DNA of 64,000 nucleotides from Bryum argenteum (taxonomy: Eukaryota; Streptophyta; Bryopsida; Bryales; Bryaceae). This document shows, piece by piece, positions 1,091 through 49,171 of this stretch. Position 1 is the stretch's first letter. Every line of letters starts with the position of its first letter. The stretch is taken from positions 9,122,001-9,186,000 of the forward strand of contig CM073321.1 in the NCBI GenBank assembly GCA_037043015.1. The letters are read 5' to 3'. The translations under genes and the position numbers were made by a program. The notes beneath the pieces were generated by a model. That model was not told the DNA's origin and ran no database searches. It saw only the letters and a program-made list of their open reading frames with translations.

Positions 1091-1201
1091 TTTAGGTCGA
1101 CGCCACCTAAGTTTCAGGTGTTTACGTCGATGCGAGCTAAATTCTGTGCATTTAAGTAGACTCGACCTAAATTTCGTGCGTTTAGCTGGACTCGAGCTAA
1201 A
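1091..1201. repeat. Palindrome array in copy A intron 1 (30-bp period, 4 units)
   Basis: Four degenerate palindromes start at 1091, 1121, 1151 and 1181, an exact 30-bp period, inside the intron 1045-1249. The units diverge in sequence but keep TTTA at the left and CTAA at the right. The last unit (TTTAGCTGGA, then ctcgagctaa) is closest to the consensus seen elsewhere. Confidence 0.85.
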
Positions 1202-2608
1202 TGATCATCCCGTCATGTTCTTGAATTGATGTCGATTTTTCTTTTTCAGGATTTTGAAGAGGCCATGGTGAAACGCTTCATGAGTATAAACACAAAATCC
1301 CTCGACAAGCTCTTGAAGCCAGCGGACCTCCTCAACGAATTAGAAATCATCACCGCTTCTGAGGAGGTGTATCAGCTGTGGTCGGAAGTTATCATTGCAG
1401 TCGGGATGGGAGAGTTGATAGACCCCGACACTTGCGAGCCTTTCAACCGGAATCTTGACTGGGAGACCAAATCCAAGGAAATCGTTTTGACTCGAGATAC
1501 CTTCAGGCAAATGTCTGGATTTGAGGAGCACGACTTCAAGACACTAGCGCTTCATCTTCCGAATAGGACTCCGGACCGGGACCTTCCGTATCCCAAAGTG
1601 TCCTTGAAGAAACCGAAGCTGAACTACTGGGAGTGCGTTGCAATAAAGGTTTGGCTGGAGAAGCGCAAGAGGAAGAAATGCGTTGCAAGAGAGTTCCACA
1701 ACATCAAGCCATCACTGGGATTATTCGACAGTGCTGACAAGTTTGTGGTTGAAAAGTGGAAGCTTTTCAAGTTTGAATACAACGTAAATCGGCAGACCAT
1801 GTCGATGCTTCTTTCCGTGCCTGGGGACGTGTTCTTCAGCGACTACCGGCAGAAGAGGACGAAGAACAAGAGTTCTGAAGAGATCTCCGAGTACGCTGCG
1901 GAGTTCTTCAAGAAGTTCTTGGAAGTGAAAGGGGATTTTTCGCTGCCAACCCCGGAACTTCATACAAGAATGTTTGATGCTGAGGCGTTTCAGTTCGCTG
2001 GCTGGGATAATGGGTATGCTTGGGACGATGGAAGGTGCGCGTTGGGCATTATCGACCTGAGATGCGTCCCGGACCATAGTAGCAGGGTGGATGACATTTC
2101 GAATGTGTACTTCAAGGACTTCCTAAATGCTTGGAAGGATTCTGTGTATGACCCCTCCATCAAGAATCCTGACGTCTGGCTTATCATAACGGAGACTACC
2201 GATCGTCATTGCCAGGCCGTTGTATATTTCAACGTTTTCAAGGATATGTACAAGTCGAAGGCAGTTCACTACGCACCCGCGAACAACGAGCGTCTCAACG
2301 GTATCTTGGAGGGGAAGGTCGTGGACAAACACCGCATTCCGCTCTTGTTTCTCCTCAAGAGAACCTCCCATGTATCGGAGGTATTCGATGAAATTCCGGA
2401 GGTATTCTATGCCCCGGAGTTGCCCCTGTATCAGAAACCAGGAGCTTACAGGGAGTTCGATTTCTGCATCAACGACAACGAGTTGCGCTTGGAATTTTAC
2501 ATTCGCGTACTACGAATGTTTACAGTTCCAGGAAACAGATTTTTGTCGATCATGGGTGGATCTAAGCCCATGCTTGCATGAATTGTAAGTTTGTAATTCC
2601 TTTGGGCG

Positions 2609-2768
2609 TTTGGGTCGATGCCACCTAAATGTCTGTTTTTGTCAAGTTAACATCGTCTCTTCCGTTTTACTTGTCAATTTAATTCGTCTCTATCTAAAGT
2701 ACACTTGATTTACTTGGCGTTCGTCAGACTTGACACTGATTTGGGCGTTTAGGTCGATGCCACCTAAA
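2609..2768. repeat. Two degenerate palindromes in copy A intron 2
   Basis: Copies at 2609-2629 and 2748-2768 lie in the intron 2585-2841. Each is embedded in a longer repeated block that begins TTTGGGCGTTT and continues CCACCTAAAT, so the block was duplicated at a 139-bp distance. The AGCT of the consensus has become AGGT on the left and ACCT on the right, which keeps the inverted symmetry of the outer arms. Confidence 0.8.
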
Positions 2769-24155: not shown

Positions 24156-24385
24156 AATAGCTCGACTCGAGCTAAAAGGCCATGGACAAAATACAAAGAA
24201 TGAAAAAATTTAAGCATGAGACTGTTTAGCTCGACTCGAGCTAAACGAGCATGAGACCGTTTAGCTCGAGTCGAGCTAAACGAGCATGATACCGTTTAGC
24301 TCGAGTCGAGCTAAACGAGCATGAGACCGTTTAGCTCGAGTCGAGCTAAACGAGCATGAGACCGTTTAGCTCGACTCGAGCTAAA
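24156..24385. repeat. Homogeneous 35-bp palindrome array in copy C intron 2
   Basis: Five canonical palindromes start at 24225, 24260, 24295, 24330 and 24365, an exact 35-bp period. The 14-base spacers are almost identical (CGAGCATGAGACCG type). The central base is C, G, G, G, C. A sixth, degenerate copy is at about 24156. All lie in the intron between exons 2 and 3. The near-identity of units shows recent amplification. Confidence 0.92.
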
Positions 24386-26215: not shown

Positions 26216-26751
26216 ATAGGCAATAGAATTATCTACTTCAATTCCGGTCGGTTCTAGAGATCGCACGATAAACCTTGGTTCTGCAGGGTCGAGCAGGTCG
26301 ATCGACACGTCAAGCGGATTGTCGCGACTGAAGACATAACACTCTGCACAGTTGTTCCAATAGTCCTTCAGAGACTTCGTCGCTTCCTCATACTTGATCT
26401 CCTTCTCCGAGACAGCCACGTTCATTGTAGGGTTCATGAACGTAAGTGCGCTGCCGGAGGATTTGCTCCTTTTGGAGCCAGAACTGGATGAGATCAGGTT
26501 TGGCCGCTTCGATCTCTGCCCGCCTAGACTTCCCTTTGGAGTGCCTAGACCCGACGGAGCATTCTCGGATGGAGCCTGCAACAGTAGACTCCCGGACCGT
26601 TTTATCGGAGCCTTGCCTCTCTTCTTCGCAGTTTTGAAATCAGACAGAGCCTTCCAAATCTGTGCAGTGTATGGAATGTACGATCTCACGAAGGCTTTTG
26701 GCGAAGAAACATTGGGCTGCAATCTCGTGTCGATATGATGAAGCTGAGTGA

Positions 26752-26790
26752 ACCCCATATTCGTTATATTGGGAAATATGCAGGACTTTG
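26752..26790. mobile_element. Degenerate terminal-like motif at the B/C junction
   Basis: The + strand reads ATTCGTTATATTGGGAAATAT, close to the ATTCGTTATAATGGGAATAT inner part of the terminus, but the outermost AAACACGTA is not recognisable. Its orientation fits a 3' terminus of copy B. Copy C homology ends at about the same place, so B and C appear to be abutted or nested here. Confidence 0.42.
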
Positions 26791-26829
26791 GGAGATTTAA
26801 GAATAGAGAATCATCTAAAATATCGATCA

Positions 26830-27050
26830 ATGTTAAGCATAAAGTACTAGATCTATATCAAACATGATATGCGTATATGTAAAAAGAGACATCGCCCTGA
26901 ACAAACAATAGAAAACGGATGGGAATAAAAGAATATTCCATTTATTCGCTTGTAAATATCAATCATGATTCATAGAATATGTCATACAAGAGTGATGACT
27001 ATCAAATCTGTACATAATTACTTCGGTAACTAATAAATGTAACTACTACG
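26830..27050. other. AT-rich 3' flank of copy B
   Basis: About 220 bases separate the B terminal-like motif from the end of copy B gene 2. No gene is seen. ATTCCATTTATTCGCTTG near 26935 may be part of the copy B 3' untranslated region. Confidence 0.4.
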
Positions 27051-27051
27051 G

Positions 27052-29160
27052 AGTTCCACCATAAGCGACAATACAAGATTGGATGAATGCTCGTTGACGC
27101 CGACGAGTCCAGCTAGAATCATTGTCTTGCATCAATGGACTATCAAGAAGGCTTTGCAGTCTTTCGCGACGCCGGTCCTCAATGCTTGACTTAGGTAGCT
27201 AGTGGCGGCGGGTTTCTGACGAAGGCTTGATTGCTCCCCGTTCCATAGACTTCGAAGGACATGCTTTTTGACTCTCCAAAACACGATCCTGAACAAAATA
27301 AAACAACGGCATTTCTTTTAAGTTAACGAGCGAATAGATACATACATGCAATAGGTAGCATATGAGTACAATGTCTAAGAATTCTCTAACGTATTAGAGT
27401 GTATAGCAGTAGATCTACAAATAGTTATTCGTTCTTGCAAACACTCAACTCAAAGCATTAAATGCACACTCTGATACAAACCTTCACGAAAGCTTCTTCA
27501 GAAATATCCAGGTCAATGTTGTATAACATACGCTTCGTAGGCGTAAATGTATTTTGAAGAGGAGAACCATTTTGGTTAAATGTTCGAGGCGACACAGGGG
27601 AGGCGGATTGCAACACCTTTGGAAGTGATGACTTAGTGACAGGGCTGTTAACTACTCCATCTTCTACTGCCATTGTCGAAAAATCCATGGTAGATTGAGC
27701 CATTTCAGCAGACAGCAATAAACGTCCTCTACTCCGAAGTGAAGGCCTGAAATCCGCAGCATTCATCAAAGAATCCACAGAAGCACGACAATCACCCTGC
27801 GTAATCTATTTCCACAATTTTCCAAACAAATCATCAATTATCTAGAGTACATAAAGTTCATGCAAGAGAGACTTTGTATTCAGAAACTGAAAATTCTAAA
27901 ACCTATAAAAAGTCCTACAAATCTACTACGGGAGCTTCACATTCTAAGATACAAATTCAAATAAAATCAAAGGGTCGAAATTTGTCGACAATAGAATATA
28001 AAATAATTTTTCATTCTATTGATGCCTTTTGTATATCATTATACAGATCTAATGATGCATGATCATCATATATCATGGCACGTCCAAATGGAAAGGATGA
28101 CCGAAACTTGCTAAGGGGACCGTCAAACTCATGGAGCTCTAACAGATACGGCAAAACCTCATCTAACAAAATAGAATCCTCGTGTGCCCTATTGTCCTTG
28201 TGAGACCAAGATGGTAGTAAAAGAACATTTTCCCGCTGATTAAGCACATGCTTAACCGGACTATCATCTATGATGAGCGTATCAGCCTCTGTATAAAACC
28301 CATCAAAGCTATTGAAGAAATGAGCTGACAAGGTCTTAAGGAAGATAGACTTTTGAGTTCCCGGTTCCTTCATGAACAAAGGTCGGCTCCCACCAGATTT
28401 CAAGGGAATCATATCACAATCTTCTTGACCAAGAACTCGTAGTAGCCTTATAGGGTTTATAGGACCGAAGAGAAAATCACAAATGGCTCTTGTGGTTGTT
28501 CTCATCATCCAACTCCAAACCGTAATGGTAGCAAACGATGCCACCCGAGAGAGGAAGTCCTTACAGTTTGGCCTCACCCATACAAGCTTCTTCCCCACCT
28601 CGGTTGGCAACGTGGCCGAGTGAACAAGGAAGTCACGGTTTCTGTATCCTTTAGCTTCCCAAAATCGGGTACAACTGCAGAGGATACCATTAAGGTCGAG
28701 AACAACATTTAACCAAGTACCGGAGGATTTCTTTGGAACCGGACCTATGTCTTCTCTAGATATTAAATCATTGACCGATGCTTCGTTGACCTGAAATGAA
28801 AACGACGCACCACGACAAAATTACTGGGGAGCTTTCGTCACTGGTGTGATGAATTCAAGGTCAGAAACATAAAATACATCGCAACGATGGCATGGGTGAG
28901 CAGTGTTTCTGGAACAGAAAATAACTGATTATCACAATTGCTCTCCTCTAAGTCAACATAGACACCCATTGACCCGAGTGACTGCTCAGTGCAATCTATC
29001 TCATCACGGACAACAACAATATTCTCTGTATGTGAGACATCATGCATTTTAAGTGTGTCCTCCAGCGATGGAACCCGCTCATGGTGATAACATTCAAGCG
29101 TGACATCATCCATGACTGGAACATCGATTGCTTCGTCCTCCAAATTAACATCTGGCAGCG
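27052..29160 (-). pseudogene. Copy B gene 2: FCP1/SCP-like HAD protein
   Basis: The FCP1-like exon starts after a good acceptor at about 28792 and runs to 28011. Motif I reads VVLDLNGIL, so the nucleophile Asp is present but the second Asp is Asn. VWVRPNCKDFL, ITVWSWM and LIIDDSP follow. Downstream exons are about 27778-27458 and 27298-27052, the last with an in-frame TAG (near 27199). A possible first exon lies at 29143-28838 (acidic, MEDEAIDVPVMDDV). Copy B is the most diverged of the three but keeps motif III best. The family dephosphorylates Ser residues, for example on the RNA polymerase II tail, in the nucleus; no activity can be claimed here. Confidence 0.65.
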
Positions 29161-29249
29161 CAATACAAATTCATGGAATCAGGAAACAATAAGATGGAGG
29201 AAATAGAATATGGGAGCCAATAAGAAGCAGATAGGAAAAAGGGCAACAG

Positions 29250-29270
29250 TTTAGCTTGAGTCGAGCTAAA
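29250..29270. repeat. Near-canonical palindrome between copy B genes 1 and 2
   Basis: TTTAGCTTGA, G, TCGAGCTAAA with one mismatch, flanked by CAG and CTG so that the symmetry extends to 27 bases. It lies between the end of gene 1 (29393) and the start of gene 2. Confidence 0.85.
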
Positions 29271-30275
29271 CTGCAAAATAGTAAAGGCCTGTATTAATTA
29301 CAAAAAAAATGTCTGAGTTTGATACAAAATTTCACATGTATATGTGTTTTCCGGAATATACAGCTTAAATACTATACACTCGATCCAAAATCTAAGATGA
29401 AGGAGGACCTGTAGATTCTTCTGCGCCACCCTTAGGTTATAACTCAGACGTAGGAGATGAAGGCGTAGGCACGGAAGGCTCTGTAGTTGGAGGCGGCAGA
29501 GACGTGAGTGGTTGCAGAGAAGTAGGATCAGCATGTATAGCAGTAGTGATTGCCATTGTCTGCACCGAAGTTAATGCGTTGCCGGCAGTAAAACTCTGCA
29601 TCATCTCCATCATCCTGTCATGGCGTTTCTGGTCCCTCTTATCGCGTTCCTGCTGCGCAATTTTCTGCTGCGTAAGGAGCTCTTCCAACTTCCTCCGGTG
29701 TGTCGTCTCCTCCTCAAACTTGCGCTGTAGTGCTGCCAACTCGTTACTCTCCTCAGCCTTGAACCTACTTGAGGGAGAGTCCTTTGACAGGGGATTACGT
29801 TTCCGTATTGCACTCCCCCTGCCGCCTCCTCGCCCAGGAGCCGTACGCGACTCCTGCGGTGTCCGAGGGGTCGTGTCCAACTCCATGTCTTGCTCTTCGC
29901 CTGGAGCGGGGTCATCTCCTCCGGAACCAAGGCTGTAAGTGCTGCCTCCGCCGTGAAGTTGCTTTCCGCTTGACCCAGAGTCCTCCCGGTCGGGGACATC
30001 CGCCTCGTCGTCAAGGGCCTCGTCATCCAAAGACGCAACAGCTTTGCGCTTACCCTTCAAGAGCATGGCCCCAACCTCCAAAAACTGGACTTTGTCGACG
30101 AAATAGCCGTTCACGGAGAATCAGTGGAATCAAGAGTAAGCCCATCGCTGTACGCTTGGTCGATGTCCTCTTTATCTTCGAGATCGAATATGGCGTAGGC
30201 ATCGAGAGACAACATCTACAAAAAAAACACTGCAGCTTAGCTAAAGCGAACATGGTTGGAGAACAAGCATGACAG

Positions 30276-30368
30276 TTTAGCTCGACTCGAGCTAAAATGT
30301 ATTGCATTTTAACTCGAGTCCAGCTAAACTGCCACACAGCCATACAGTTTAGCTCGACTCGAGCTAAA
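30276..30368. repeat. Three palindromes in copy B intron 3
   Basis: Copies at 30276-30296 (canonical), 30308-30328 (two mismatches) and 30348-30368 (canonical) sit in the intron 30411-30216. Spacing is 32 and 40 bp. Flanks CAG and CTG extend the symmetry of the outer copies. Confidence 0.88.
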
Positions 30369-31862
30369 CTGTAGGGAATCATTTAAGCGTAAATAGAGTA
30401 AGTCAGCTTACCACGCTTGCGCAGACTGCTTTTCCGCCGGCTGTCTAGACAAAAGATAACATTCTCCTGCTCCTGGCAAGAAAGCTGGATGACCTGCAAA
30501 TAAAAATCCATCCTCAACTCGATCGGGTACATGTGATACCGAGACTCGTTGTACTTCCGCGGCTTCTCGTAAAGCGCGTGCTTAGGAGCGCGGTACTCGG
30601 TCTCTGGCAATCTCGCAAGTTTTATGTCTTCCCTGATCATGAAGAGAAGACGCACGGGCTGCGAGGCTTGCTTGGCTTTCGCATTGAATCCAGCGATCCG
30701 TTCGTGCGGGGATGGAAAGTACATCGATGGAATCAGCTTATAATTTGCCCCTTGGAAGTAGGCAGGATTTTTTGCAAACGCCTCGACTTGCAGGTAATCA
30801 TTGTCATCCCCTCAAATGAAGAACCAACAAGGTACATCTTTAAGAGCTGGCTTGTTCTGAGACGAGAAGATCGCCATGAACACTTTGATGAATGGGTGTT
30901 CAGGCGAGGAATCTGCGGAGGTGCTACCACTACCCGGAATCAATTTGAAGTCAATGATTCCAACGTTCATCTCAGGAGCAACCTCCGGCCATGAGTTCTC
31001 AGGCCAGTCTCCGAGCCTCTGTGGTGTTCTGCGGTGGAAGGAATGGAATATAACACTACCAACAGGGCCTACGAACTTCTCGCGCTTTTCCAAGAAAACC
31101 TCGAAGAATCTCTTTGGGTAGGGAAAGGGATCCTCGCAGCTGGTATTCCTGTGCTTGGTCTGCCTCTGATCCGCATAATATTTGTCAAGGATTCCCCATT
31201 CCAAAAGAGCGGGCTTGGAGGCCTTCGTGACGTGGTAGTCTTTCTTGAACTTCTTCCACGCATCCACGTCGAACTCATTATTCTTGAAGATCCCAAGTTC
31301 GGGGCGGATCTTGTGGATCTGAAGCTGGGCGGTCGCCTTCCGCTTCAACCGCTCAACGTACTCCTTCACGGAGTAGCAATCATCAAGAAGAGTTACTGGC
31401 TGTTTGAGGGTAACCTTCGGGTATTCCAGTTTCCGCGACGGACCTGACTTATTGAGCATATGGGTACAGAGTTTCCTGTGGTCCAACTCTGAAAGGTTAC
31501 GGAGGTTTTTGAAAAATTCCCTCGACAGGGTTTGGTCGTTATCTGGTTTGAACCTTGGCTTGTCACACAGCTGCCTCAAGGAGTAGGGGTCGATAAGGGT
31601 CCCCTGCGCGACACTTCCGATCAACTCTGCCCATAGGTGCCAGAGATCATCAGGGAAGGTGATGATCTTTCGCTCATTCGTTAGGGACAAGACCTTGTTG
31701 TTCACCTCTACTTGGGCCTTGGCAACATCAATCATGGCGAACCTATGCCGTATAGAGTCAACGAATTTCTCCAACGGCACAGAAGTAATGTCAGACTTCA
31801 GACTATAAGAGAGCTTATGTGTGAATCCGAAATTAAGAAGCTTGTTGAAACTGCGGTGACAG

Positions 31863-31948
31863 TTTAGCTTGACTCGAGCTAAACTTCAATGACAGTTTAA
31901 CTCGACTCGAGCTGAACTGTCATTGCAGTTTAGCTGACTCGAGCTAAA
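31863..31948. repeat. Three palindromes in copy B intron 2 (33-bp period)
   Basis: Starts at 31863, 31896 and 31929 give two exact 33-bp steps. The third has lost one base in its left arm (TTTAGCTGA). Spacers contain CAATGACAG or GTCATTGCAG, themselves partly complementary. All lie in the intron between 32013 and about 31781. Confidence 0.88.
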
Positions 31949-33521
31949 CTGTCGTTGCAAATGATTGCAGTTAGAGAAGGTAGAGTTGCGATGCGGCATG
32001 AGGTAATACTTACGTCAAAATTTGCGAATTGTGACAAAACTCGCTTCGCTTGAACTCGTTTGTCCGCCACCCCAGCTGCTGCATGTCTGTTGGCTGGGCG
32101 CCCATAGTTCTCCCACACGGTGCGGGCGGCAAGGATATTTGATGCCTATGTTGGCTTAAACGGAGTGAAATGGTTCACTCTGTTATAAAACGCCGATATT
32201 TTGCGTAGCTTGGCTTCATCCTTCATCCAAACTACGAATGCAGACCACACCCGAAAGTCCTTACGAATTGTTTCTTTGAACTCAAACATGTGCTTGGAGG
32301 CGGCAACATCGTGCTGGCCGTTGATTATCCAGAACTCGCAGTCCTGCATATGTTCAATTCCGTTCAGCTTGACCTCCAATTTTGGCATCACGCAGAGCGT
32401 TTGCTTCTGCGACCTGTCGGGCATATTGATGAGGAAATTCATCAAGTCCATCTTGCCCCTCTTCTCGAATGCTCGAATTGTCCATTGTAGAGGGGACTCG
32501 ATCATCTTCATTGTGTCTATCTCCATCTTCGTGTCAGGTTTAGGAAAGACGAAACAGTCCTGACAATCCGTGAAGAACTTCTGATAGATGAGGTTGACGT
32601 TCTCGAAGTCAATTTCCTCCACGGTATTAACGTTCTTTGGAATGCATTGAATAGCATCGTTCAAAGCCGTTAAAGCATCCTCTTCCGGGATGAGCATGCT
32701 CTTCTTCTTTTTTGCCTCGGTCGACTTCTTTACAGGAGCTTCTCTCCTCAATACCGGCGAGTCAGTCGTCGTGCTGATTGGAGGGGCAGGCCTTGTAGCA
32801 CGTTGGGGGCGTGTTTGGGTCCTGCTCTGTACGCCGCTCCCCGTTGCTGTCAGCCCAGATCCCTCGAGTGGAGCTTTCCCTTTGAGGTGTATATTTTTCG
32901 CCATTATGTCAGCGTGCGTCAGAGCAGAGACTACAGATCGCAATTTGATCGCGAGCTGCTTGGCCTTGAGAGCTCCCCCCTGTTTGATTTGCCATGCTTT
33001 AGTAAGCATATCATGTTTCAGTGTTGATTTGATATCATCAAAACTGGACGCCTCTAAGCTCTCCACCAACTGCTTCAAGTCGAAACGAGTCTGCTTGATA
33101 TCGATCAGTATGGCGTAGTTGTTGCCACACTCCTTGTCATTCTCCTTGAAGGTTGTGCACGTCGCTATGACTTCCTTCTCTGTTTCGTGGTCGAAGTCAG
33201 TGAGCTTGGAATCGATGCCAACGCACATGGGGTCTTCTACATCTCTTTCATATGTGATGACAAGGGTGAGGAATGCTGTGTATGGGATCTATCTCGCAGA
33301 CCACGAAACCACTTTTGATGGGTCTTTGAATTCCCAGCAGTCTAATTGCTTCGTGTCGTCTCCATCGTCATCGTCAGCGTCCAGCGGCTTGAGTTTGAAG
33401 AAGTGCTGGAGCGCCTCTTGAACTCGTGCCTTCTCTTGACTGTTCATGTAAAGGTTGTGTTAGTTGATAGTGTCGGTTTCGATACACATAAAGCGTAATT
33501 CATACATCCTAGTACTTGCAG

Positions 33522-33772
33522 TTTAGCTCAACTCGAGCTAAACTGTTGTTGGCACAAGCCCCTACAGTTTAGCTGGACTCGAGCTAAACTGTAGAGGCCT
33601 GTTTTATCAACAATTTAGCTCGAGTCGGGCTAAACTGTAGGGACATTGGTCACCTACAGTTTAGCTCGACTCGAGCTAAACTATTAATGAAACCGGCCTC
33701 TACGGTTTAGCTCGGATCGAGCTACACTGTAGTTGACTCAAACCCCTACAGTTTAGCTCGACTCGAGCTAAA
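33522..33772. repeat. Six palindromes at exact 46-bp period in copy B intron 1
   Basis: Starts at 33522, 33568, 33614, 33660, 33706 and 33752: five consecutive steps of exactly 46 bp. Palindromes are canonical or carry one to three changes. The 25-base spacers begin CTG or CTA and end ACAG-like, which extends the symmetry to about 33 bases, but their middles differ (for example TTGGCACAAGCC against GGACATTGGTCA). The array fills the intron 33836-33440. Confidence 0.93.
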
Positions 33773-33849
33773 CTGTAGGGAGTACCTATCTATTTATTAG
33801 CTAAATTTTCATCAGAATGCAGGTGATGATCGTTACATGTCTGCCATTA

Positions 33850-35500
33850 TCGTTTTTGTAGTCGATAATGCGCTTGTTTGCTGCGCTTGTCCTTGGCTTG
33901 ACCTGCACAAGAATGTATTTAGTCATGATATGGGAAGGATGTGATTAACTTCGTTTGCATGTTAGCAGTTGTGATGAGTTACAGATCTTGTATAAAAAAA
34001 ATTGGTTGGAGAGTTAGATTGGGAGTTTAATGGTAGTGTAGGTGAAGGACAAAGTCTAATTTCTCCATTCATAAGCCGACCCATTTCATCAGAACATGCT
34101 GCATCTATTGTTTTTTTGAATGCTTAAAATGAAATTCACACATATACACGATTCAACATCAATGCAGTCAGAAAAAAAGTGCTATTGTGAAGAACAGAAA
34201 TCAAATACTGCTGGGCACATTCGAAGTCAAAATTAGTACATTAGTGCTGGGCACATTCAAAGACAAAATGAACAATGAAACTGTACTGTATGTTACAGAA
34301 AAGAACATGACAAGCAATGCACAACAGTGGAAGCAAGAATCAAATCATGCATACAAACACAACCCTACTAGTGAACCGCTCACTGAAATTGCGCAAATAC
34401 TTCACGTCGAGCTAAATCTCAAACTAAGAATTGCAAAATCTCATAAGAGATTGAAAATTTCAACTCAAATCCAGTTCCTACCTGCAATAAATCGGAAAAT
34501 GCGTGGATGTATGTTTCTCAAATGGGATGCAAGCAAAGTAAATTAAATTGGGACTGAGGACTTACGAGGAAGAAGACTTCACCAAATTCTATCGCCGCTA
34601 ATCACTTTCAAAAAGCAGAAGTCGCCGCCAATCACTCCCCCGTACTCCGCAAGCAGCAGTCTCCAGCAATCCTCGGCGCAAACGAACAGGAACACCAACT
34701 CCCTCTAATAAACATGAACACCGAAATTCCCTAACTAAGAAACTCTAAATTTCTCTAACGAGCAGAAATTGCAGATTTCTCTCATGCAGCTGGAGCAATC
34801 GCTTAGAGACGCAAACTCTAAAAGCAAAAGTGGTGGCCTAGCTTACCTAAGATATTTGTAACCGCACCAGTGAACGCGCAGCAGCAGCTTTTCCTCTGGA
34901 AGCACAACCTCCGACAACCAGCGATGCAGAACCGGAAGAAGAACCCCAAAAAGCAGAAACTTCGGGCTCCGGCAAGCAGCTGCACCTCCGGCAGACTAAA
35001 CCCCCGGAATAGCCGCACCTCCGCGAAGGAGCACCTTCGAACCCCCGCAAGCTGCACAGCTCCGGCGAGCAGCACCTTCGAACTCGAACTCCCGCAAGCA
35101 GCACAGCTACAGCTCTGGCGAGCAGCACCTTCGAACTCCCGCAAGCAGCTGCACCTCCGAACAACGTCACCTGCGGAAAAACAAACCTCCGCCTCAACGA
35201 CATAGCTCGACCAACCTCCGCCAAGCACTCAACTACAAATCCAAACCCTAAACCTCTGCCACGCGCTGAACTACAGAGCTTCAAGAAATACCTCCACCAA
35301 GCACTCAACTGAAAAGCCTCGCAGCCTCACCTCGGCACAAACCCCTACACCACTCAAGTACAGAGTCTGAAGCAAAATGGCGCAAAACGAAATAAGCGCA
35401 AAACGACAAAACGAGTGGCACGACTACTGCGCCGCAGAGGAGATAGATTAACGACAAAACCCTAATGCACGAGTCTAACAGCGCAAAGGAGAGAGAGGGA
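33850..35500. other. Upstream flank of copy B, no supported gene
   Basis: A short exon-like stretch before the proposed ATG has an acceptor-like TTGTGCAG at about 33907. A half palindrome (GTCGAGCTAAAT) occurs at about 34410. An open frame at 34187-34546 has no recognisable features. The region 34560-34800 shows nothing distinctive. The left terminus expected for copy B was not found here. Confidence 0.4.
34970..35180. repeat. Imperfect tandem repeat, AGCAGCACCTTCGAAC family
   Basis: Units of about 25-45 bp combine CTCCGGC(A/G)AGCAGC, CACCTTCGAAC and CCCGCAAGC in changing order. The repeat gives rise to Ser/Cys/Gly-rich open frames on the reverse strand (34818-35308) that I do not take as genes. 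Confidence 0.65.
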
Positions 35501-35592
35501 ATGCAGGAAAATAATGAGCCTGGATGGAGTGGGGTGTCGGGGGGATGGACAGTGCGTTGGCGGCGGTGGTGGGACGTGGAGGTTCCATCATG

Positions 35593-35714
35593 AAAAAGTT
35601 TTCCATGCCCATGATCATGTGCATGGGCATGGTCATGCACATGGTCATACACACATACATGGCCATGTGCATGACCATGCCCATGCACATGAACATGGGC
35701 AGGGAAAACTTTTT
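35593..35714. repeat. 122-bp imperfect hairpin of CATG-rich sequence
   Basis: Left arm 35593-35648 and right arm 35659-35714 are each 56 bases and pair with three mismatches, around a 10-base loop ACACACATAC. The arms begin AAAAAGTTTTCC and consist mostly of CATG-based hexamers. Transcribed RNA would form a long near-perfect stem on either strand. Confidence 0.93.
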
Positions 35715-35850
35715 TACTTTAGTGATTTTTAGTTTACTAATATTTACTAATGTTTACTAATTTTTACTAATGCTTAAAAAATTTTTACTTATGTTTACTA
35801 ATTTATACTAATGTTTACTAGTTTACTAATGTTTACTAATTTTTTCACTA
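35714..35850. repeat. TTTACTAATG tandem repeat
   Basis: At least nine imperfect copies of a 10-14 bp unit TTTACTAAT(G/T) follow directly after the hairpin. The units are AT-rich, and spacing drifts between 11 and 17 bp. Confidence 0.8.
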
Positions 35851-37790
35851 ATTCTTGGCTAAGTTTTGACTAGGATTTGACTATGTTTATGTCCAATTTT
35901 TGCCCAAAATTTGACTAAATACATGTTTAGGTTTTTAATGAAAGTTTGTGACTAAATTTAGTATTGTAAAGTACTCTAAATTCTTAGTTTTAACTCGTAA
36001 ATTTAGAGAGTACATTGTTCCCTATCTACTGTAATAAAGGGCTGCCATGTTTTGTTTTTATCACCTATAGTATACATAGGTAAAAACCATTTTAGAATAA
36101 AAATAATTCTATATAAGGCTCTTCACCTTGTAATTGATTTGTAATTTTTTTATCATCCAAGTAAAACAAATATACTGAATTTCTGTTAGAAAAATTGTCT
36201 TATACAAATTAATTTCTTCTACTTCTGTAGTATGTACTATTTTCAGATGATGGGTATTGACAAGTACAAATAATATTTTGTTAGTATAAATATATATAAC
36301 CATAAGTTTTTAGAAAGGTGAATTTTCGTTTTGTACTCTAGTTTCATTGGAGTTTACTTAAGTATGAAAAGATATATGCGATTACATTGAAATGCAAAAG
36401 TTTAAAAAGAAAAAATTGATGTCATTTCTAAAAAAATCAGGAATCAAAATGATCACTCTCTATCATAATAGCTCTTCTATATTTAGGAAAAATAAAAATA
36501 TAATTAAATAAATAAATAAGTAAGAATCTAACTTTTTGTAAAATAAGTTATTTTTGTATTACTCGTTAATAAATAATATCTTTAATGGATTATTTTTTGG
36601 ATAACATAAGTCTTAATGAAGAGATTATTTAATACACATTTAATTTGTCAATCAGTAGAGACTTTATAGACTTTTCAGGAATATGTTAATGTACAGAAAT
36701 AAATAAATATACAATCATATAATAAATTGATCAGCAAAAGATACAATATCTTATAAATATAGTACTTTGAAAAATAACTAACAATAAACAAGTTATTGAA
36801 TACACATTGAAATAAGGGATTATTGATTCGACTATTTATTAAACATATTAATATAACTAAATATATATATATAATTTAAGGAACTAATACGCTAATATAT
36901 ATATGATGTTAAGAATTTGGTATTTGAAAATAGTAGGTCAATAAATCAATTATTTGTAAAGTTCAATTAAGAGTTTTATTGACTTTAATAGACTAATAAA
37001 TTGGTTATCCAATAAATATAGTATTTTATAGATATGTTATTTAGGTATAAGAAATTAATAAATACACTCTTTCATACAAGAATAATTTAGAGAAGGTTAG
37101 GAATAGATTATTACCACATATGAAATACACTTGTTTTTTGAGAATGAGCTGATATTGCATAAAGTTATTGTTGAATATAAAAGTTTATATATAGATAATT
37201 AAAAAATATAATATGATATTTTTTTAATTTTTGATACTTCTATAAGTAGTGTCTTTGACAAAATTAGTTAATAACTGAATTATTAATTCGAACATTATTT
37301 TAGAATTCAAAATTTGAGGACAAGAGATTCATAAATATAATTAAGTAGGACAGTGAGTGTTAGCACAAATGCAAATTTGGATTTTTTTGATGTCGAATAT
37401 AGGTTAATGATATTAAGTGCTCTGAAACTATAAAATCATGCTATTGCCTAGAGGGTTTCAATAAAATTCATAGCTTAGAAGCTATAAATATTGCCTATTA
37501 TGTAGAATTTTACCAGCTATATAAATGAAAAAAGACATATTTTAGATAGTATAATGACTATGATTACATTCTAAAAATATGAAAACATGTATTAGTGTAC
37601 ATTGTTGGCCACATTTTTATTTACATTGTACAACGATCATTTCTGTACATTTATTCTTATTGCATGTTCATTTAAAACCATTTTTGTTCTTGAGTATGCG
37701 TTTAAATATATTTATAAAGTAGTAGAATAAATTATTAATGAAAAGTCACGTTCAAAACATAAATACGTCGATGAAGTTCATCACTCTCTA
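35850..37790. other. AT-rich gene-free tract
   Basis: Nearly 2 kb of very AT-rich sequence with no convincing coding frame, no palindrome of the 21-bp family and only simple A/T runs. It looks like old, decayed intergenic DNA. Confidence 0.6.
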
Positions 37791-37925
37791 AGGTTGTTCA
37801 AACGACCATTTGTTCTCAGGCCAATCTTTTAGCCTCTGTGGTGTTTTGCGCTCGAAGGAACGTAATATAAAACTACCAACAGGGCCAATAAATTTCTTGC
37901 TCTTTTCAAGAAACTCGATACCATT
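37790..37925 (-). pseudogene. Fragment of module gene 1 (fourth copy)
   Basis: On the reverse strand the frame reads EFLEKSKKFIGPVGSF and then a block ending RLKDWPENKW, homologous to copy B gene 1 near 31120-30990 (EKFVGPVG, RLGDWPENSW). Sequence to the right up to 38051 is in frame but not similar. Only about 45 residues remain. It shows the module was once present here too. Confidence 0.72.
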
Positions 37926-38463
37926 GCTACAGAATTTGAAGAGAATCAGCACCCACTCTATATCAAGCCAATTCGTCGCTGTAGGCAGCTCTGCGTCTAA
38001 AGCGCTGAACATTCTACGTTTTGAAGGCATTGCTAACGATGGAAGGCTCACAATGAGGCTGAGTCTTTTTTACTTTGCAAGCGGCATTCAAAATCAAGTG
38101 GATTAGACAATAGAGTGTTGAGTACATGGGCAATAATGTGTTATCAGTCAGGATATATTATCGAGTACTCTAAGATAGTCTTAAAGCGAAGCTTATTCAT
38201 TTAAAAGTATAGTTTCTACAAATAATTTCAAAAATATAATTTCAATAAACGTAAATAATTTTTACAATCCTTAATTTGAAGTATGAAAATCTTTTTTTAA
38301 AAAAAAATGTCCAAGATTAACTACAATACTTAAAATAAATATAAATTATACTATATTGCGTGGAATAGATCATAATAGGGCGTAAAGAGTTGCATATGTT
38401 TATGACTCCTTATAATAATTACAACGAAAACAATATAATTATGATGAAATAAACTCGATTCGG

Positions 38464-38637
38464 TTAAAACACGTAATTTTTTATAATGGTATTCTTCACT
38501 GATTTTGAGAAAATTAATGTGGGTTTAGCTTGGGTCGAGGTAAATGTACCCACACAGTACATTTGGCTCAACTCAAGCTCAATTTTCATCAATTTGATAA
38601 TCTGAATATTTTCAATATAACGAATTACGTGTTTTAA
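38464..38637. mobile_element. 174-bp short element with module termini and TTAA flanks
   Basis: The left end reads TTAA then AACACGTAATT, and the right end reads AATTACGTGTT then TTAA. The termini match those of copies A and C, with similarity extending to about ACTGATTTTG on the left. Inside are two degenerate 21-bp palindromes (38524 and 38572, 48 bp apart). It has no coding capacity. I read it as a non-autonomous derivative of the two-gene module. Confidence 0.78.
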
Positions 38638-38639
38638 GC

Positions 38640-40510
38640 TTACGTTTAAGCTTAAGAAGGTCCTGTACTGAAAAATTTCATTTCTTGAATTGATTTTCAT
38701 AAATCTTATTCTTATGATTTCACAAGGTCAAATAATTTAAGACATAAGCATAGAATAGGTTCAATTTCTCACACATAGACTTTCTTAAATACTCAGATGT
38801 TTATTTAGTTATTTAATCCTCAAGAATGAAAGTATAAATCTAATATAACGTCACAAAATAAGTAATACTAACGATAAGAATAAAATGGTTGCCTTGCTTT
38901 CTCCAACATGGACGCAGTGAAATTGAACTCTCCGTGAAGATGCGAAGTACCAACGGCTAAACAGTAAGACCCCGTGCACCTTTACTATAGCTTTGCAGTG
39001 ACAACCTTGATTGAATGTGTAAGATAGGTGGGAGTTGGTGACGTGCAACGTCACCTCCAATCTTGGAATATCACTCTTTCGTCTAAGGATGTCTAAGTGC
39101 CAAAACAGAGGCGGAACACTGCATGTTGGTTAGTTTATCTGGGGCGGATGCCTTTAAGGAAGGTGCGCTTGGATGGAAACATCTCAGGCTAATCTGGCTA
39201 TATGCTGAAATCTCCATTTCTTGGACGATCAGCAGGGATTTAATTAAAGATAGTTACTGAAATTTGCAGGATAAAATTTCAACTTTAAAGATCAATGGAT
39301 GTATAGATTGTATTTGATAAATGCATATTTCAAACAAAAAGATGTCTATATTTGCAACTAATTTTGAACATTTCAATACAACATCCAATTGTAAGGTTAA
39401 GCATCTACAAATGAAATTAAAACGTTCAAATGTAATCTTATTTTGGTAAGCTTTATGTTAAAGAAAATTAAATGACATATATACCATTGAGCATCTATAC
39501 AATGAAATTAAGTTTAAATATAAAATTTTATGTATATTAAAACTTCTTTAATTAAATCTTTAATTAAATCTTCCAAAGTGTATTTAACAAGATTTACAAA
39601 CTTACTTATGAAATAGTATAAATTTTTTATCGTTCATAACCTTGAAAATTTCATTTAAAATTTAAAGTTAAAATATTTGATTTCATCAGTACAGTTTATA
39701 GCTCAATCAATTTGATACTCTACATAATATACTAAGATTATATTTACATTTTATGAATTTACAATTTGAAAGATATATTTTTTATTTATAGATAAATAGT
39801 ATATAATATAATATGTAATAAATATCATTTACTATATTAAATTATATATAATTATCAAATGTATTACGTATATACGAAGAAGTAAATAGAATTTAATAAA
39901 AATTATGTTTACTCGTACAATTTTTAACAAGATATTGCATATGATAGAATTAATTTGAAGTGTATAATAATCAACATTCAATTAAAAATTGTTAGCAAGT
40001 GCATACACACAAAAACGTTAATAGTAATAAACTTATAGATAAGATATTAAGAACCTAATACTTAATAAGACTTATGCATCATTTAATTAAATATGGAGTT
40101 TGGGCTTATTATGGACGTTAAAACATGGGGAGATCCCTCCATCCATAACCTTAAAATATACGTATTTGAAGAGTATCCTCATGGAATCTATATTATAGAA
40201 ATCATTTTGCAACTATTGTTCCTAATTGTAGATCGTGGACTGTCCATATTTAATTAAATATGTCATACTTCACCTTAAGGTAAATATAACATCAAATTTA
40301 TTGAATACGAACTTTATTAAGAAAGAAAGGTTTGAGCTTAAGAATACTCAATTCACAAAAATATGAAATTGAAAGTTGTATCCATTGTATTGCTTCCAAG
40401 TAATTATACTAAAATTTTATTGTGTCATTGAGTATTTGCTAACATAGTATTCCTCACTGTAGGTGTATAAAGATTAACATTTTTTTGACCAATTACAATT
40501 ATCACACACC
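38640..40510. other. AT-rich tract without supported genes
   Basis: Mostly A/T-rich sequence. A less AT-rich patch at 38870-39240 has no clear frame; a 69-codon reverse frame at 39060-38851 is probably chance. TTTAATTAAATAT-like strings recur (40083, 40248). No palindrome copies. Confidence 0.5.
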
Positions 40511-40518
40511 TATAATAG

Positions 40519-40640
40519 AAACCCTAAACCTTAAACCCTATAACCCCAATCCCGCCAATTTTCAAATGGCGGCTCGTTTCTTTCCGCCCATTATTAACTG
40601 TTGACACTTCATCTGTCGAGACTTCACTTCCCGCCAATTT
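40519..40640 (+). promoter_or_regulatory. Telobox and E2F-like promoter region
   Basis: AAACCCTAAA at 40519-40528 and a second ACCCTA at 40535-40540 are telobox-type motifs. TCCCGCCAA occurs at about 40550 and TTCCCGCCAA at 40628-40637, which match E2F sites, and TGGCGG lies near 40567. In plants these motifs mark genes active in dividing cells. The likely target is the transposase-like gene starting at 41943. Confidence 0.5.
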
Positions 40641-41188
40641 TCAATTTTCTAAAAGTCAATTCCCTCCCATTTCCTATTTATGGGTTAGCGCGAAAACGGC
40701 ATTGCGCTACGCAATGACCTTCGAAATCCACGACGAAATGATTCTTTTTTCAATCTCTCAGTTTGCTGAACTCCCTCGACGTATTTCGGTTCTCCGCGCT
40801 TCCTTCAACTCGCCCTCTACCTTCGTGTACGTGTTTCCCGATTGCATTTATGCATGATTGTTTGTAGTTCAATTCGCTTTGCACAGCTTCTCGCATTGTT
40901 AGATTCATCATTCTTCGTAGTTTTCTCCTTATCTTCAGTGGTAGTAGTTGATAATTTTAGTTCAATGGTTGTATTCTAATGGCTTGTATTTCAGCATGGT
41001 GCATTCGGAGTCGTTGTTGTTGACATATTATTTTCATTTGACGATTACGTTGGTACAGGAGTATATTTTGATTCCTGCGTGTGACGACAAAATGGGAGAG
41101 CGCTGGTTGTAACAGAATTTTGAATTGTATTCACATCCCGTGAAATCCGCCGGAAGTTTCGGGACTAGTATGGTACTTTGCCATGCAG

Positions 41189-41854
41189 TTTAGCTCGACT
41201 CGATATAGATGTATAGATGTATAGATGTATACATCAGCAGTTTAGTTCGAGTCGAGCTAAACTGTATGCGTGCAAATATCTGCAGTTTAGCTCGAGTCGA
41301 GCTAAACTGTCTTGCATGCATGTTCTTGCAGTTTAGCTCGACTCGAGCTAAACTGTATGCGTCCATGTTCCTGCAGTTTAGCTCGATTCGAGCTAAACTG
41401 CAGAATGAATGAGTATTGCAGTTTAGCTCGACTCGAGCTAAACTGCAGTAACGTGCCCGCTTACAGTTTAGTTCGAGTCGAGCTAAACTGTATTGCATGC
41501 ATGTTCCTGCTGTTTAGCTCGACTCGAGCTAAACTACAATATTCCTTCGTATCTGTAGTTTAGCTCGAGTCGAGCTAAACTGCTGTATGCATCTTGTCGG
41601 ACAATTTAGCTCGAGTCGAGCTAAACTGTAGCATATATCTCGTGAAATTGTTTAGCTGGTGTTGAACTAATCAATAGCGCGGGACAGTATTCCCCCTTGT
41701 GCTCGAGTCAGGCTTTACTGCTAGGGGTTTAGGTTAATCATTTTAAATCGCGTCGAGTTAAACTGATTGATCGAATACATAATGCAGTTTAGCTCGACTC
41801 GAGCTAAACCGTAGAATGTATTCTCTTAGTAAGTTTATCTCGAGTCAAGCTAAG
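41189..41854. repeat. Long palindrome array with 45-46 bp period (14 phased units)
   Basis: Units start at 41241, 41286, 41332, 41377, 41422, 41467, 41513, 41559, 41605, 41651, 41697, 41742, 41788 and 41834. Every step is 45 or 46 bp. A half unit lies before them at 41189. Most are canonical; 41651-41742 are degenerate but still in phase. Spacers are 24-25 bases and largely different from each other, although three share TGCATGCATGTTC- or CATGTTC-like text. The array lies between the presumed promoter and the first ATG (41943), probably in a 5' intron ending TTGCAG at 41941. Confidence 0.95.
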
Positions 41855-41942
41855 CTGCACTTGTTCGTTTCTCATACAGTCTTGGAGTTGTGACCATGTT
41901 TTTTTCTAATTAATTTCTAACCTTGTGAGGCCATATTGCAGG

Positions 41943-44824
41943 ATGGATTTCTCTTCAGACGATGACACTTTTGGCGATGCACCTATAAATCCTGGTTTAC
42001 TTGCTGCTCAAGTTGTTCCTCCACGGCTCTAGACAGGGAGGACTGTTGCAATGCTTGATTCCGATGGACTCAGAATCGCTGAGGGTTTACTTCGAAACCT
42101 ACGATCCGGCGCTGTACCGGATTGTCACGGCCTACTCGGTGATTCCCGAGTTGTGGTGCAAGTTTCAACTTTGTTTGTTGAGGTCGAGGATCCAGACGAC
42201 TGGATATACTCCTTCAAGTCGTGGCCCATCCAACAAGTCCTCCTAGACGGTGTTACTCTTTTTGACCATAGTCAGCAAGATGTTTACAACAGATGGGTCC
42301 GGGAACGTAGTCGGCGGCAGGGGTCATCTCGAACTCGATTGTATGATAATTCTTCAAGGAATGAGTCTACCCCAGTTTCGCGCAAAGCACAGTATCTGAT
42401 GACAGCAGAGTCAATCAATGCGGTCGCATGTAATACCTGCTGTAAGCACAACTGTGTTCAACTATACCCAAGGGAGAAAATTAAGGTTCTCAGGTGTCGC
42501 ATGTACGACAAGACAACTGTGCAGTTCAAGAATCACGTCAAACTCGATGTCCATAGGCAGTTTCATAGAAACGCTGAAAAGCGAAATGTAGTCACTTTAG
42601 AGGGTATTGATGTTTGTCCGATTGCGTGACTGAAGATCATGGGCGTGAGCAACGGTACGTTTTATCGCAACGCCCAGAGTGCAGCTGATGGGCATGAGGC
42701 CCAGTTACACGGGAACATGGGCTTGCGAAAGCCTAGGAGGCATATGATTGTTGCTTTTGCCGTCTTAGGGGCAATACTTGATAGACATGCCGATCACATG
42801 CCTCACAAGTCCCGGAGCCTTCCATCAGGGGAGAAGGTCGTTGCCAAGGTACTTCCTTCAAGTTTTAAGTGGAAGGACCAAATTCATCTTCTTGATCATC
42901 ACCTTCAAGAGTGTGGGCTTCTGCCGGTGTCAACTTCAAACCTTAGTAAGATATGCCGCGTCAATTACCCAGAATACTATGCCAAAAGATCGGGGGACAA
43001 TTTCGCGCGTTGTTCCAAGTGTGATGAGTTACAATCCATGATGAAGCTCACTCTTCCCGGGACACAATCATCGCTTATATGGTCAAGAAGTTGAATGTAC
43101 ACTTAGATTCCGCATATGCGCACAGAGACTTGTACTACCTCAACCGTTTTTAGGTCGAAGGAGTCGCCTCAAGATGTTTTGACCATTATGCATGACAAGA
43201 TGGACCACTCAAAAACAGCATCACCTGCCTTGTCTCATAAGGTGAAGAACTTAGACGGACTCATGAAGTTACCTCTTGCAGCTACAGGAATTCTTGCTCA
43301 TGGTCATGTAGACCAGCGATACGCTCATTATGGACTAGATGTTTACTCACATGATGCCAATTATACGGATGGCTCATTTGCAAAACTTCTGCGGGATCTC
43401 GAAGCTGCACCTAAATCCTCATCTAGACATCTCCTTACAAATCCCCCATCGCATCCTCTGTATACTGCTCTTTTACAAGGTTCAGAGGTGTGTATGGATC
43501 CACTAGGCCCGATTCCTGACATCCTAGTTCCAGCAAAGTCTCTGCCTCCGATTTTGAATGTCCAAATGGATAATGCTGTAAGTGATAACAAGAATAGATT
43601 TGTTTTTAGTTTCTGATCTCTTTTGGAAGCGAAGCGAGTATTCCGAGAGATATATGTAAATTTTATGCTCGTTGGTCATACTCATGATGACATAGATGCG
43701 TTATTTGGGCGTTGGAGCATGGCGTTGCAAAAGGAGGATTATCCTACCATCCCTCTTCTCATGAAATCTTTTATGAGGATAGAGAAACTTCCTGTTATTC
43801 CACACCTCGTTCAAGAAGTTCCGGACTTCAAGAAATTCATTGAAGAGTGGATGTTAGTTGGCGATGAAGCATTGGTAGGGCATACGAAAGCGCATCAATT
43901 CAAGTTTTACATGGATCCAATTGGATGCCCCGTAATGAAGTTTAAGATTTTCTGTCACGACGAGGAATGGCTTCCTAGAGGTGATCATGCTGGTATTAAA
44001 TTGTGGAAGGAGGATTCTCAAGGCAGATCATTATGGCCACGTGGTGAACCGGATGCAATGCGTCCAAACGAGATGAGCCATTTGCCTGAGGTGGTGAAAG
44101 GGATTTCAGGCTTTGTTGATCATTGGGAACGATTATCACGTGAGTCAATTGAATCGCGGAGATTGTACGAGCCACTTTCATATTACTGGAGCGGCGTTAA
44201 AAATGCTCTTTGTATATCCATGGATGTACTTGCATCGTCGCAAAATGGGATTCCGTCAAGTTTGGAGGAACCATTACCGTTACAACATGGTTTTTTGCCG
44301 TCAACTCGACTTGCACATGCTATGGAAGATGAGTTTACTTTAGAAGGGAATGTACGCGAAGAGTACGACGACGATGATCATTTTGTTGGCAGAGACGTGA
44401 TTGTCCTGCTCCGTCATTTTGAGTTGGACGTGACCTTTATAAGGGCTATTTTGTTGCACTACGTCCATGCGGCACCGATGGTCAACCTTTCTGGCTCGGG
44501 CGAGCAATGTCTGATCCAAATTCAAACCCAGACCTACCCAATACGGTTGACATCCAGTTCTTCCGTCCAATGTCACGCTCCAAAGAAATTCTGAAGTATT
44601 ACACAGATTGGGATACAAATAGAAAGCTTCGATGGACAATTGAAAAAGGTGTAGATGTATGTTCGCAACCTACAGATGCTATTTTCACTGCTTGGAAATC
44701 AAGAATTACGCATTCTGACGAGGAAAGCAGTGAAGGTATAGACGCAATTATTACGATACCCAAGAAGCAGGTCGAAATCATCAAGGCTTCTTTACGGGAG
44801 CTTGCTTCATCTTCTCAAGAGTAG
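41943..44824 (+). pseudogene. Transposase-like protein with GHTHDDID motif, decayed
   Basis: From ATG 41943 one frame runs to 44594, with in-frame stops at 42030-42032, 42627-42629 and 43614-43616 and two opposite frameshifts around 43060 and 43155. A last frame shift near 44490 leads to 44824. Features: a Cys-rich patch (NTCCKHNC, about 42440), FARCSKCDEL (about 43010), LNVQMDNA (about 43555) and VGHTHDDIDALFGRWS (about 43670). From memory these last blocks resemble the DUF7869-type RNase H-like domain found in many plant and animal repeat proteins. Stops at 42627 and 43614 probably replace Trp. It is flanked on both sides by palindrome arrays. Confidence 0.65.
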
Positions 44825-45748
44825 TCGTCTAGTATATAGTATTTATTATGGAAGTAGGTGTGATAGTACTTAAACTTGGTATTGACATATATATTACATT
44901 GATATTTAGTATATAGAGTATTATATTTTTGTACTATTTACTATCCATATTCAATATATTTATTTTGTATGAGTAGATTGTTTAAGTTGACTCCATCATT
45001 ATTATCAATTGAAAGAAAATTATTTTTTGTTGGTATGTTAATCTTGACATGTACCGTATCAAATATATGTATGGTTGGAAACGTTTTTTAAGATAAACAT
45101 ATTTTCTAAGATGCAAGAGGTCTCATATCATCTCCAAATATAATGGAAACTAGTAAATTCCGAGTACATATGCATTCGGTGACACCCCTCTAAATGTTGG
45201 TTTTTGCTTCATCCGTTGTCTTGTTTTAATTTGGGAGATAAAAATGTTCCAAATATAACCAATATGGGGTTATTGAAATCTGATATAGTATTGTTTGGGG
45301 GAGAGTAATCTAAAAAATAATAGCAGAAATCTAATGTACATGCATGAGATGTGAGGATCGTTGTAAGGAATTATTTATGGTAATCAAGAATAAATGCTAT
45401 GGTAAGGTAGCCGTCAGCCACATTGCTGTCAGTCGCCCTCATAGCATGCATCGAGGTGACAGCCACCTCTCCCATGCTCATCTCCGACATGTCATCTCGC
45501 ACATTCGGCGTACTATAGGCTGGTCAATAGCATGTGTCGGCTTTCAGTTTCGTGGAGCGGTTGTCGCGGCTCTCGTTGACTCGTCAAGGCTATAAACATG
45601 ACTCTGGATTACAGTCAACACGATTTGGGGGACTCATCGGTTTGCATTGTTTATGTTGGTAATCCAGCATTACTAGTTGTGCTCGAATTTGAACTAGACT
45701 TCTTCATATTCTTCACATGTCTCGGACCTCGTTTTGAGGTCAAGCCCG
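44825..45748. other. 3' flank of the transposase-like pseudogene
   Basis: AT-rich sequence to about 45330, then a more GC-balanced stretch with GTCAGCCACATTGCTGTCAG at 45413 and a related ACAGCCACCT at 45460. No gene is supported. Confidence 0.45.
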
Positions 45749-45980
45749 TTTAGCTCGAGTCGAGCTAAATGAGCTTGGACTAGAGCCAAGTAGAGAGCCC
45801 ATTTAGCTCGACTCAAGCTAAATGGGCTCACTACTTGGCTGTAGTCCAAGCCCATTTAGCTCGAGTCGAGCTAAATGGGCAGGACCTGAACCTTAGTATT
45901 GAGTCCATTTAGCTCGAGTCGAGCTAAATGGGCTTGCCTTGAAACGAGGTTCGAGCCCATTTAGCTCAACTCGAGCTAAT
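45749..45980. repeat. Five palindromes at 52-53 bp period
   Basis: Starts at 45749, 45802, 45855, 45908 and 45960: steps of 53, 53, 53 and 52. The flanks GCCCA and TGGGC extend the symmetry to about 31 bases in most copies. Spacers of about 32 bases differ in the middle. This array uses AAATGGGC flanks where the others use AAACTG. Confidence 0.93.
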
Positions 45981-48691: not shown

Positions 48692-48710
48692 CGAGCAAGA
48701 GAATTGTCTT

Positions 48711-49130: not shown

Positions 49131-49171
49131 TAGTTGAAGCCCGAGGTATAGTTTTAATTTATACTTTTACA

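Follow-up and report, generated by a model that had tools for sequence, protein, structure and literature searches.

Plant DNA transposons of the CACTA (En/Spm) and Ac/Ds types carry subterminal short repeated motifs, which bind a protein encoded by the element. Tandem sites bound by dimers are featured by the family of repeats of EBV oriP and by plasmid iterons, which are origins of replication and segregation of episomes. Clusters of binding sites carried by a transposon are already known: the 5' untranslated region of gypsy, in Drosophila, includes an insulator 340 bp long with 12 Su(Hw) sites. Of the intragenic Su(Hw) sites in the part of the Drosophila genome examined there, 88% are found in introns, the rest in 5' leaders and none in coding sequences (PMC2374998).

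The palindrome arrays reported here resemble the gypsy insulator in being transposon-borne clusters of one, here putative, protein-binding site, located in a transcribed leader and avoiding coding sequences. Gypsy, however, is a retrotransposon, while the carrier of the moss array, indicated as element A, is a DNA transposon; the moss arrays also occupy internal gaps of a second gene, and the Su(Hw) consensus, as given in PMC2374998, is not a long perfect palindrome, unlike the moss site. Like CACTA and Ac/Ds, element A is a plant DNA transposon in which a short motif recurs; the CACTA and Ac/Ds repeats are at the transposon ends, where element A has no palindromes with three mismatches or less. 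Tandem sites at a fixed short step recall EBV oriP and the iterons, but no sign of an episome was seen for element A. Minisatellites in transposon leaders show a similar change in tandem copy number; in the moss arrays, unlike them, conservation is strong, sharply bounded and limited to the palindrome. Searches of the open-licence literature, by title and abstract opening, gave no description of DUF7869 elements or of such arrays, in which a perfect dyad of 21-25 bases recurs along the leaders and introns of giant moss transposons. The clusters of this nearly invariant palindrome are not an immune memory; most likely, they are docking places of a paired DNA-binding protein which controls the genes of these transposons.

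The window, i.e. the whole 64,000-nucleotide stretch of Bryum argenteum DNA analyzed, contains the features listed in Table 1. The first-pass annotation described 14 palindromes locked to a 45-46 bp step, kept through four badly decayed units, with strongly different spacers. Each point was confirmed. The 21-bp cores start at 41241, 41286, 41332, 41377, 41422, 41467, 41513, 41559, 41605, 41651, 41697, 41742, 41788 and 41834: all 13 steps measure 45 or 46 bp, including those through the decayed units at 41651, 41697, 41742 and 41834 (5, 6, 4 and 3 mismatches in 20, respectively). A chance origin of the array is excluded: the window has 42 palindromes with up to three mismatches, and shuffled sequences have 0.01 on average.

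Table 1. Position of the palindromes and of the associated features within the window. Element types A, B and C are labels of our own.
Feature	Position	Strand	Remarks
Element A, DNA transposon	26751..45271	.	18,521 bp; terminal repeats AACCCCATATTCGTTATAT... / ...AACCAATATGGGGTT
Main array	41241..41854	+	14 palindromes, 45-46 bp steps; leader of transposase gene, in a putative leader intron
Truncated fifteenth unit	41189..41209	+	52 bp upstream of the array
Branch-like CTAAC and splice-acceptor-like CAG	41912..41941	+	just 5' of the ATG; putative splice site
Transposase-like gene (DUF7869)	41942..44824	+	interrupted by stops in the window copy
Left gene	28011..33459	-	several exons, exact ends predicted; cross-family exon homology
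Second leader array	33522..33772	+	6 palindromes, 46 bp; just upstream of left gene (minus strand)
Two palindromes	31863..31916	+	left-gene inter-exon gap; a third, with a one-base deletion, adjoins
Three palindromes	30276..30368	+	left-gene inter-exon gap; donor-like GTAAGC and acceptor-like TTTTTGTAG ends
Single palindrome	29250..29270	+	last inter-exon gap of left gene
Related array	24156..24385	+	35-bp step; homologous gap of another element type (C)
Related array	45749..45980	+	not within element A; 52-53 bp step; outer arms differ (GCCCA/TGGGC) yet are symmetric
Degenerate palindromes	1091..2768	+	around exon 1205-2581; third element type (B)

The constant repeat, the constant spacer length and the differences among spacers of one array were originally described as a CRISPR-like geometry, and this resemblance stands. 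It does not extend to the origin of the spacers: although their pairwise divergence is 35-39%, spacers of the window array are diverged relatives of one another, and orthologous spacers are found again in other copies of element A, so that they were not acquired one by one. The step, moreover, differs from array to array, and a Pfam scan of 18 protein stretches, from the window and locus L020, found no Cas family. Adaptive memory was therefore rejected, its probability being practically negligible: the spacers share ancestry and are orthologous between element copies, unlike spacers acquired from foreign DNA. The first-pass preference for a protein-binding array over immunity is supported.

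The array lies inside an 18.5 kb DNA transposon, which had gone unnoticed in the first-pass annotation. This conclusion derives from common ends, terminal inverted repeats and 4-bp duplications. The right end is common to 17 aligned loci (L027 is the window itself, and L009 shares the window flank), and the left end to other copies. Short terminal inverted repeats, AACCCCATATTCGTTATAT on the left and a near complement on the right, are present in 10 of the 10 paired copies; a 4-bp target duplication, judged by eye on printed flanks, is seen in nine of them. The right-end motif, with one mismatch at most, has 47 matches in the genome. The window copy is flanked by AGTG (26747-26750) and ATTG (45272-45275), one base apart. 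When its flanks were compared for an empty site, the left one matched L075 and the right one, palindrome-array matches aside, L009 and L027; this pattern suggests a rearrangement or a segmental duplication. Target duplications of 4 bp are typical of the Sola superfamily, to which element A is similar in this feature alone.

The middle of element A contains a block (36000-40000) of 25-28% GC, the gene regions of the element being at 42-49%. Within the block, a fragment which matches bacterial-type large-subunit rRNA (38984-39149, 68.8 bits) is found in a region common to other copies; the block also includes a left-gene-like fragment (37767-37913), as well as degenerate palindromes at two positions, 38524 and 38562.

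Element A carries two genes. The transposase-like gene is open over 989 amino acids in locus L020; it encodes a DUF7869 protein, whose named homologs come from the mosses Ceratodon and Physcomitrium, in line with the attribution of the array to a plant chromosome. As regards a possible DDE-type transposase, the protein features conserved D/H-rich motifs, and sequence searches of solved structures returned no useful match. The CAG preceding its ATG is present in 17 of the 18 aligned copies. Two CCCGCCAATTTT motifs, similar to E2F sites, are found upstream of the array, at about 40550 and 40630, and are perhaps the transposase promoter. In the left gene, open stretches are found at 33459-33292, 33288-32146, 31885-30812, 30120-29437 and 28820-28011; the last one encodes a NIF/FCP1-like phosphatase domain, which is thus transposon-encoded. 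This domain has DLNG in place of the usual DxD motif.

The core site is TTTAGCTCGA-N-TCGAGCTAAA, and the full one AGTTTAGCTCGA-N-TCGAGCTAAACT: two half-sites of 10-12 bases flank one free base. Genome-wide, 5,878 exact core sites are present, against none for the reversed pattern. All of them have one centre base, of any type, and the search found no copy with zero or two. This rigid spacing was tried as proof of a dimer and set aside as non-discriminating, since copies with arm deletions are nearly absent too (1 and 1). The compensated core variant GTTTAGGTCGRNYCGACCTAAAC is also nearly absent from the genome, with a single site. No exact match was found in viral contigs, while three prokaryote contigs have one site each. 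Steps of the arrays are 32, 33, 35, 44-46, 50-59 and about 100 bp. Helical phasing, suggested in the first-pass annotation with its 4.4 turns or so per step, is consequently rejected: from 32 to about 100 bp, the same palindrome spans 3.05 to 9.5 turns.

The sites of element A precede the transposase ATG and the left gene, or occupy the inter-exon gaps of the latter. When up to three mismatches are allowed, no site is present in the 1,260 bp of the left end or in the 447 bp of the right end, and only one in the 7.4 kb between the two leaders; subterminal transposase-binding repeats were rejected on these grounds. In eight stretches from five element types (A-E, our labels), one of 103 sites falls within the 22,308 bp, out of 59,177, with cross-family exon homology; tandem units are not independent, so that a p-value for this comparison is overstated. 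The only exonic site is at the start of an open frame which itself begins in an inter-exon gap. Donor-like GTAAGC or GTAAGT and acceptor-like ends frame two left-gene gaps, and such signals make the gaps which contain the palindromes putative introns.

The same distribution is expected if the palindrome acts in the RNA, folding into a short hairpin within an intron of the primary transcript and being recognised there by the splicing machinery of the element or by an RNA-binding protein. This intronic role is the main rival of a DNA site. It agrees with the positions in the left-gene gaps and before the transposase ATG, with ends devoid of sites and an intergenic spacer nearly so, and with the possible formation of a 10-12 bp stem with a three-base loop. 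Localization does not decide between DNA and RNA, because intragenic Su(Hw) sites are, in the Drosophila region considered, likewise confined (PMC2374998).

Other observations do not favor the hairpin. Among 351 units, read in gene orientation, transitions which keep pairing (C to T, A to G) are 44, against 56 which break it (G to A, T to C), with no excess of the former, although the test is weak, most changes being probably neutral. Dyad symmetry extends through the pair beside the centre (AnT), unable to pair in an RNA hairpin: these complementary loop positions are about as conserved as the others (10.5 changes per position for the two flanking the centre, 9.1 for the rest, as we summed them over the 351 units). 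Sequence identity, beyond mere pairing, is fixed at 99-100% in the E-type arrays, and an Rfam scan of the arrays in 26000-47000 gave no family at gathering score. An RNA-level signal is considered possible, but doubtful.

Conservation was described by the first-pass annotation as concentrated in the palindrome, and this proved correct within arrays. In the 16 arrays of family A compared, palindromes diverge by 5.6% and spacers by 35% when units with two mismatches or less are considered, a restriction which biases the estimate; without cut-off, for all 225 units, the figures become 18% and 39%. Palindromes are taken here as 27 bp without the centre, and 63 of the 225 units have more than two mismatches. 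The E-type arrays carry the conservation argument without any cut-off. In their 34 units, positions 1-10 from the centre are 99-100% conserved, position 11 is at 90%, position 12 at 84% and position 13 at 37%; at this depth of comparison, the spacers are close to random. A relaxed scan of three E-type loci found 35 units with 0-2 mismatches, all the remaining matches having 7-9, i.e. chance level: the contrast is not produced by the cut-off, because intermediate units are nearly absent.

Between copies, the difference is less marked. A first estimate, 5.3% against 10.3%, was obtained from few-mismatch units only, was biased likewise, and was redone at fixed positions. On figures pooled from 13 of the 18 copies and three of the five intact units, after exclusion of five copies with rearranged right ends, intact palindromes diverge by 6.4%, spacers by 10.6%, decayed palindromes by 13.1% and the right flank by 7.5%. 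Intact palindromes are significantly different from decayed ones only (P = 0.008, the sole significant result of four comparisons), and not from spacers (P = 0.18) or flank (P = 0.77). In our reading of this pattern, active lineages are under selection, and each copy, once inserted, decays neutrally.

An ordinary satellite or minisatellite, a passenger of the transposon devoid of function, accounts for the number of units, variable from 8 to 20 among the 16 arrays, and for the common ancestry of the spacers within an array. It does not account for the sharp edges of the motif, for its recurrence at homologous gene positions in diverged element types, or for unequal rates: spacers are from two times (decayed units included) to six times (decayed units excluded) as divergent as palindromes. 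The check which would have pointed to an old satellite, namely spacers of one ancestry diverging as much as the palindromes, found the shared ancestry and not the equal divergence. A neutral satellite was thus rejected, and is very unlikely.

The decayed units were followed in the 16 arrays having both anchors (4 of the 20 fetched loci, lacking an anchor, were left out). Decay affects the first two in every one of these arrays (4-8 mismatches) and the third in most of them (2-6); that of the fourth is mainly found in the window copy, the other 15 arrays having 0-2 mismatches. These data bear on a mutational origin of the symmetry, where template switching perfects imperfect inverted repeats in the absence of selection. 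Outer arms vary between arrays and are yet symmetric in several, with array-specific sequences, and compensated double changes are more frequent than expected (9 for an expected 2.6 in one set, 3 for 1.4 in a second one), as such a process would produce. It predicts, however, arbitrary perfect palindromes, while the same 21 bases are observed across types with unrelated spacers, and the first two decayed units are still imperfect in each of the 16 arrays. Palindrome-specific mutation or conversion is unlikely.

Recurrence extends to other elements. Window types A, B and C and loci L072, L073, L074 and L075 have sites at the same gene positions, and the identity of the unit is retained across element types despite different spacers and steps. 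On contig C1 (0.2-1.96 Mb), the clusters with flanks examined for homology, at protein or DNA level (L072 to L077), lie in relatives of the same element. Arrays were predicted beforehand for diverged transposases, 75-77% identical: leaders were fetched for 6 of the 11 listed copies with 74-79% identity, and all six carry 15-16 sites, counted at up to five mismatches in 1.1 kb. Their steps are mostly 46-47, 54-60 and 88-100 bp, and both spacers and steps are unlike those of family A. The test is not fully independent, the six arrays being 70-80% alike to the left-gene leader array of the E-type locus L063; this likeness indicates that, in one element type, the arrays of both leaders descend from a common array. 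In D and E types (L063, L078 to L083), the arrays of both leaders feature one higher-order unit of about 213 bp, with steps near 59, 55 and 100, and seem to have been copied from leader to leader within an element.

A palindrome behaving as a tiny REP-like mobile unit, inserting into introns, might also explain the same 21-25 bases in many spacer contexts. Copies of the family A arrays, however, mostly differ in length by whole 45-46 bp units, spacer included (other steps, of 29-30, 42, 47, 52 and 64 bp, are found too), and the sites keep homologous gene positions, being nearly absent from nearby non-coding DNA. Such a unit is regarded as quite improbable.

Homologs from other sources show the palindrome in translation. 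Of seven homologs of exon 1205-2581, four read past the exon end into LARVEL or FSS[ST]RA[KN], which are translated palindromes; the exon end GIVS, corresponding to a donor-like GTNAGY, is found in five of the seven, including two of the four which run into the palindrome. An eighth homolog (P0081) stops short of the exon end. Among 73 transposase homologs, one (P0021) shows a translated palindrome near its start; nearly all the others have the ATG as their first codon, so that a palindrome located before it would not appear in them.

The reading favored here, to which we assign about an even chance, is a homotypic cluster of dyad sites, bound by a dimeric protein which recognises DNA and acts within the transcription units. 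The sequence features fit such sites: the motif is symmetric around a free centre base, fixed in sequence and sharply bounded, the spacers are free to vary and the number of copies changes; the outer arms, too, are symmetric in several arrays, while differing between arrays. The protein would be a sequence-specific homodimer, a product of the host moss or of the element. It would occupy many sites in a giant DNA transposon, downstream of the predicted transcription start of either gene, and these would serve as intragenic enhancer, insulator or autoregulatory operator, enabling expression of the element genes. Active copies would have to retain the sites; spacers would merely separate them, and would for this reason drift, array length shifting by tandem duplication and loss. 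Some observations count against dyad DNA sites: their confinement to putative transcribed non-coding parts, as an RNA role also predicts, a fixed-position divergence of intact palindromes not significantly below that of spacers or flank, and the smaller within-array contrast of family A when its units with more than two mismatches are included. No candidate binding protein was found in this analysis. The first-pass interpretation, as a whole, is partly supported.

A broader, rather speculative proposal is that the palindrome is a tag, common to introns and leaders of a whole superfamily of giant moss transposons, which a dedicated dimeric protein would recognise in trans: a transposon-wide regulon of thousands of sites, by which an element would recognise, and selectively express, its own transcription units. 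About 5,900 perfect dyad sites in one plant genome, kept across diverged giant transposons while the intervening sequence drifts, point to a highly specific nucleic-acid-binding protein, for which the palindrome is directly usable as bait. Its study would reveal how very large plant DNA transposons regulate themselves, and would add to gypsy and Su(Hw) a further system based on homotypic clusters.

Elsewhere in the window, positions 48709-49136 contain another array of palindromes, TTGGGGCCCCAGCTG, with steps near 21 and 42 bp and no sequence relationship with the main one; a fragment of a CACTA-type tnp2 transposase is found at 60869-62482. Of the 47 right-end matches of element A, 36 are on contig C1 (44.1 of 258.8 Mb). 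Two of the three named Ceratodon homologs have gene names in the style of the V chromosome; contig C1 may be a sex chromosome.
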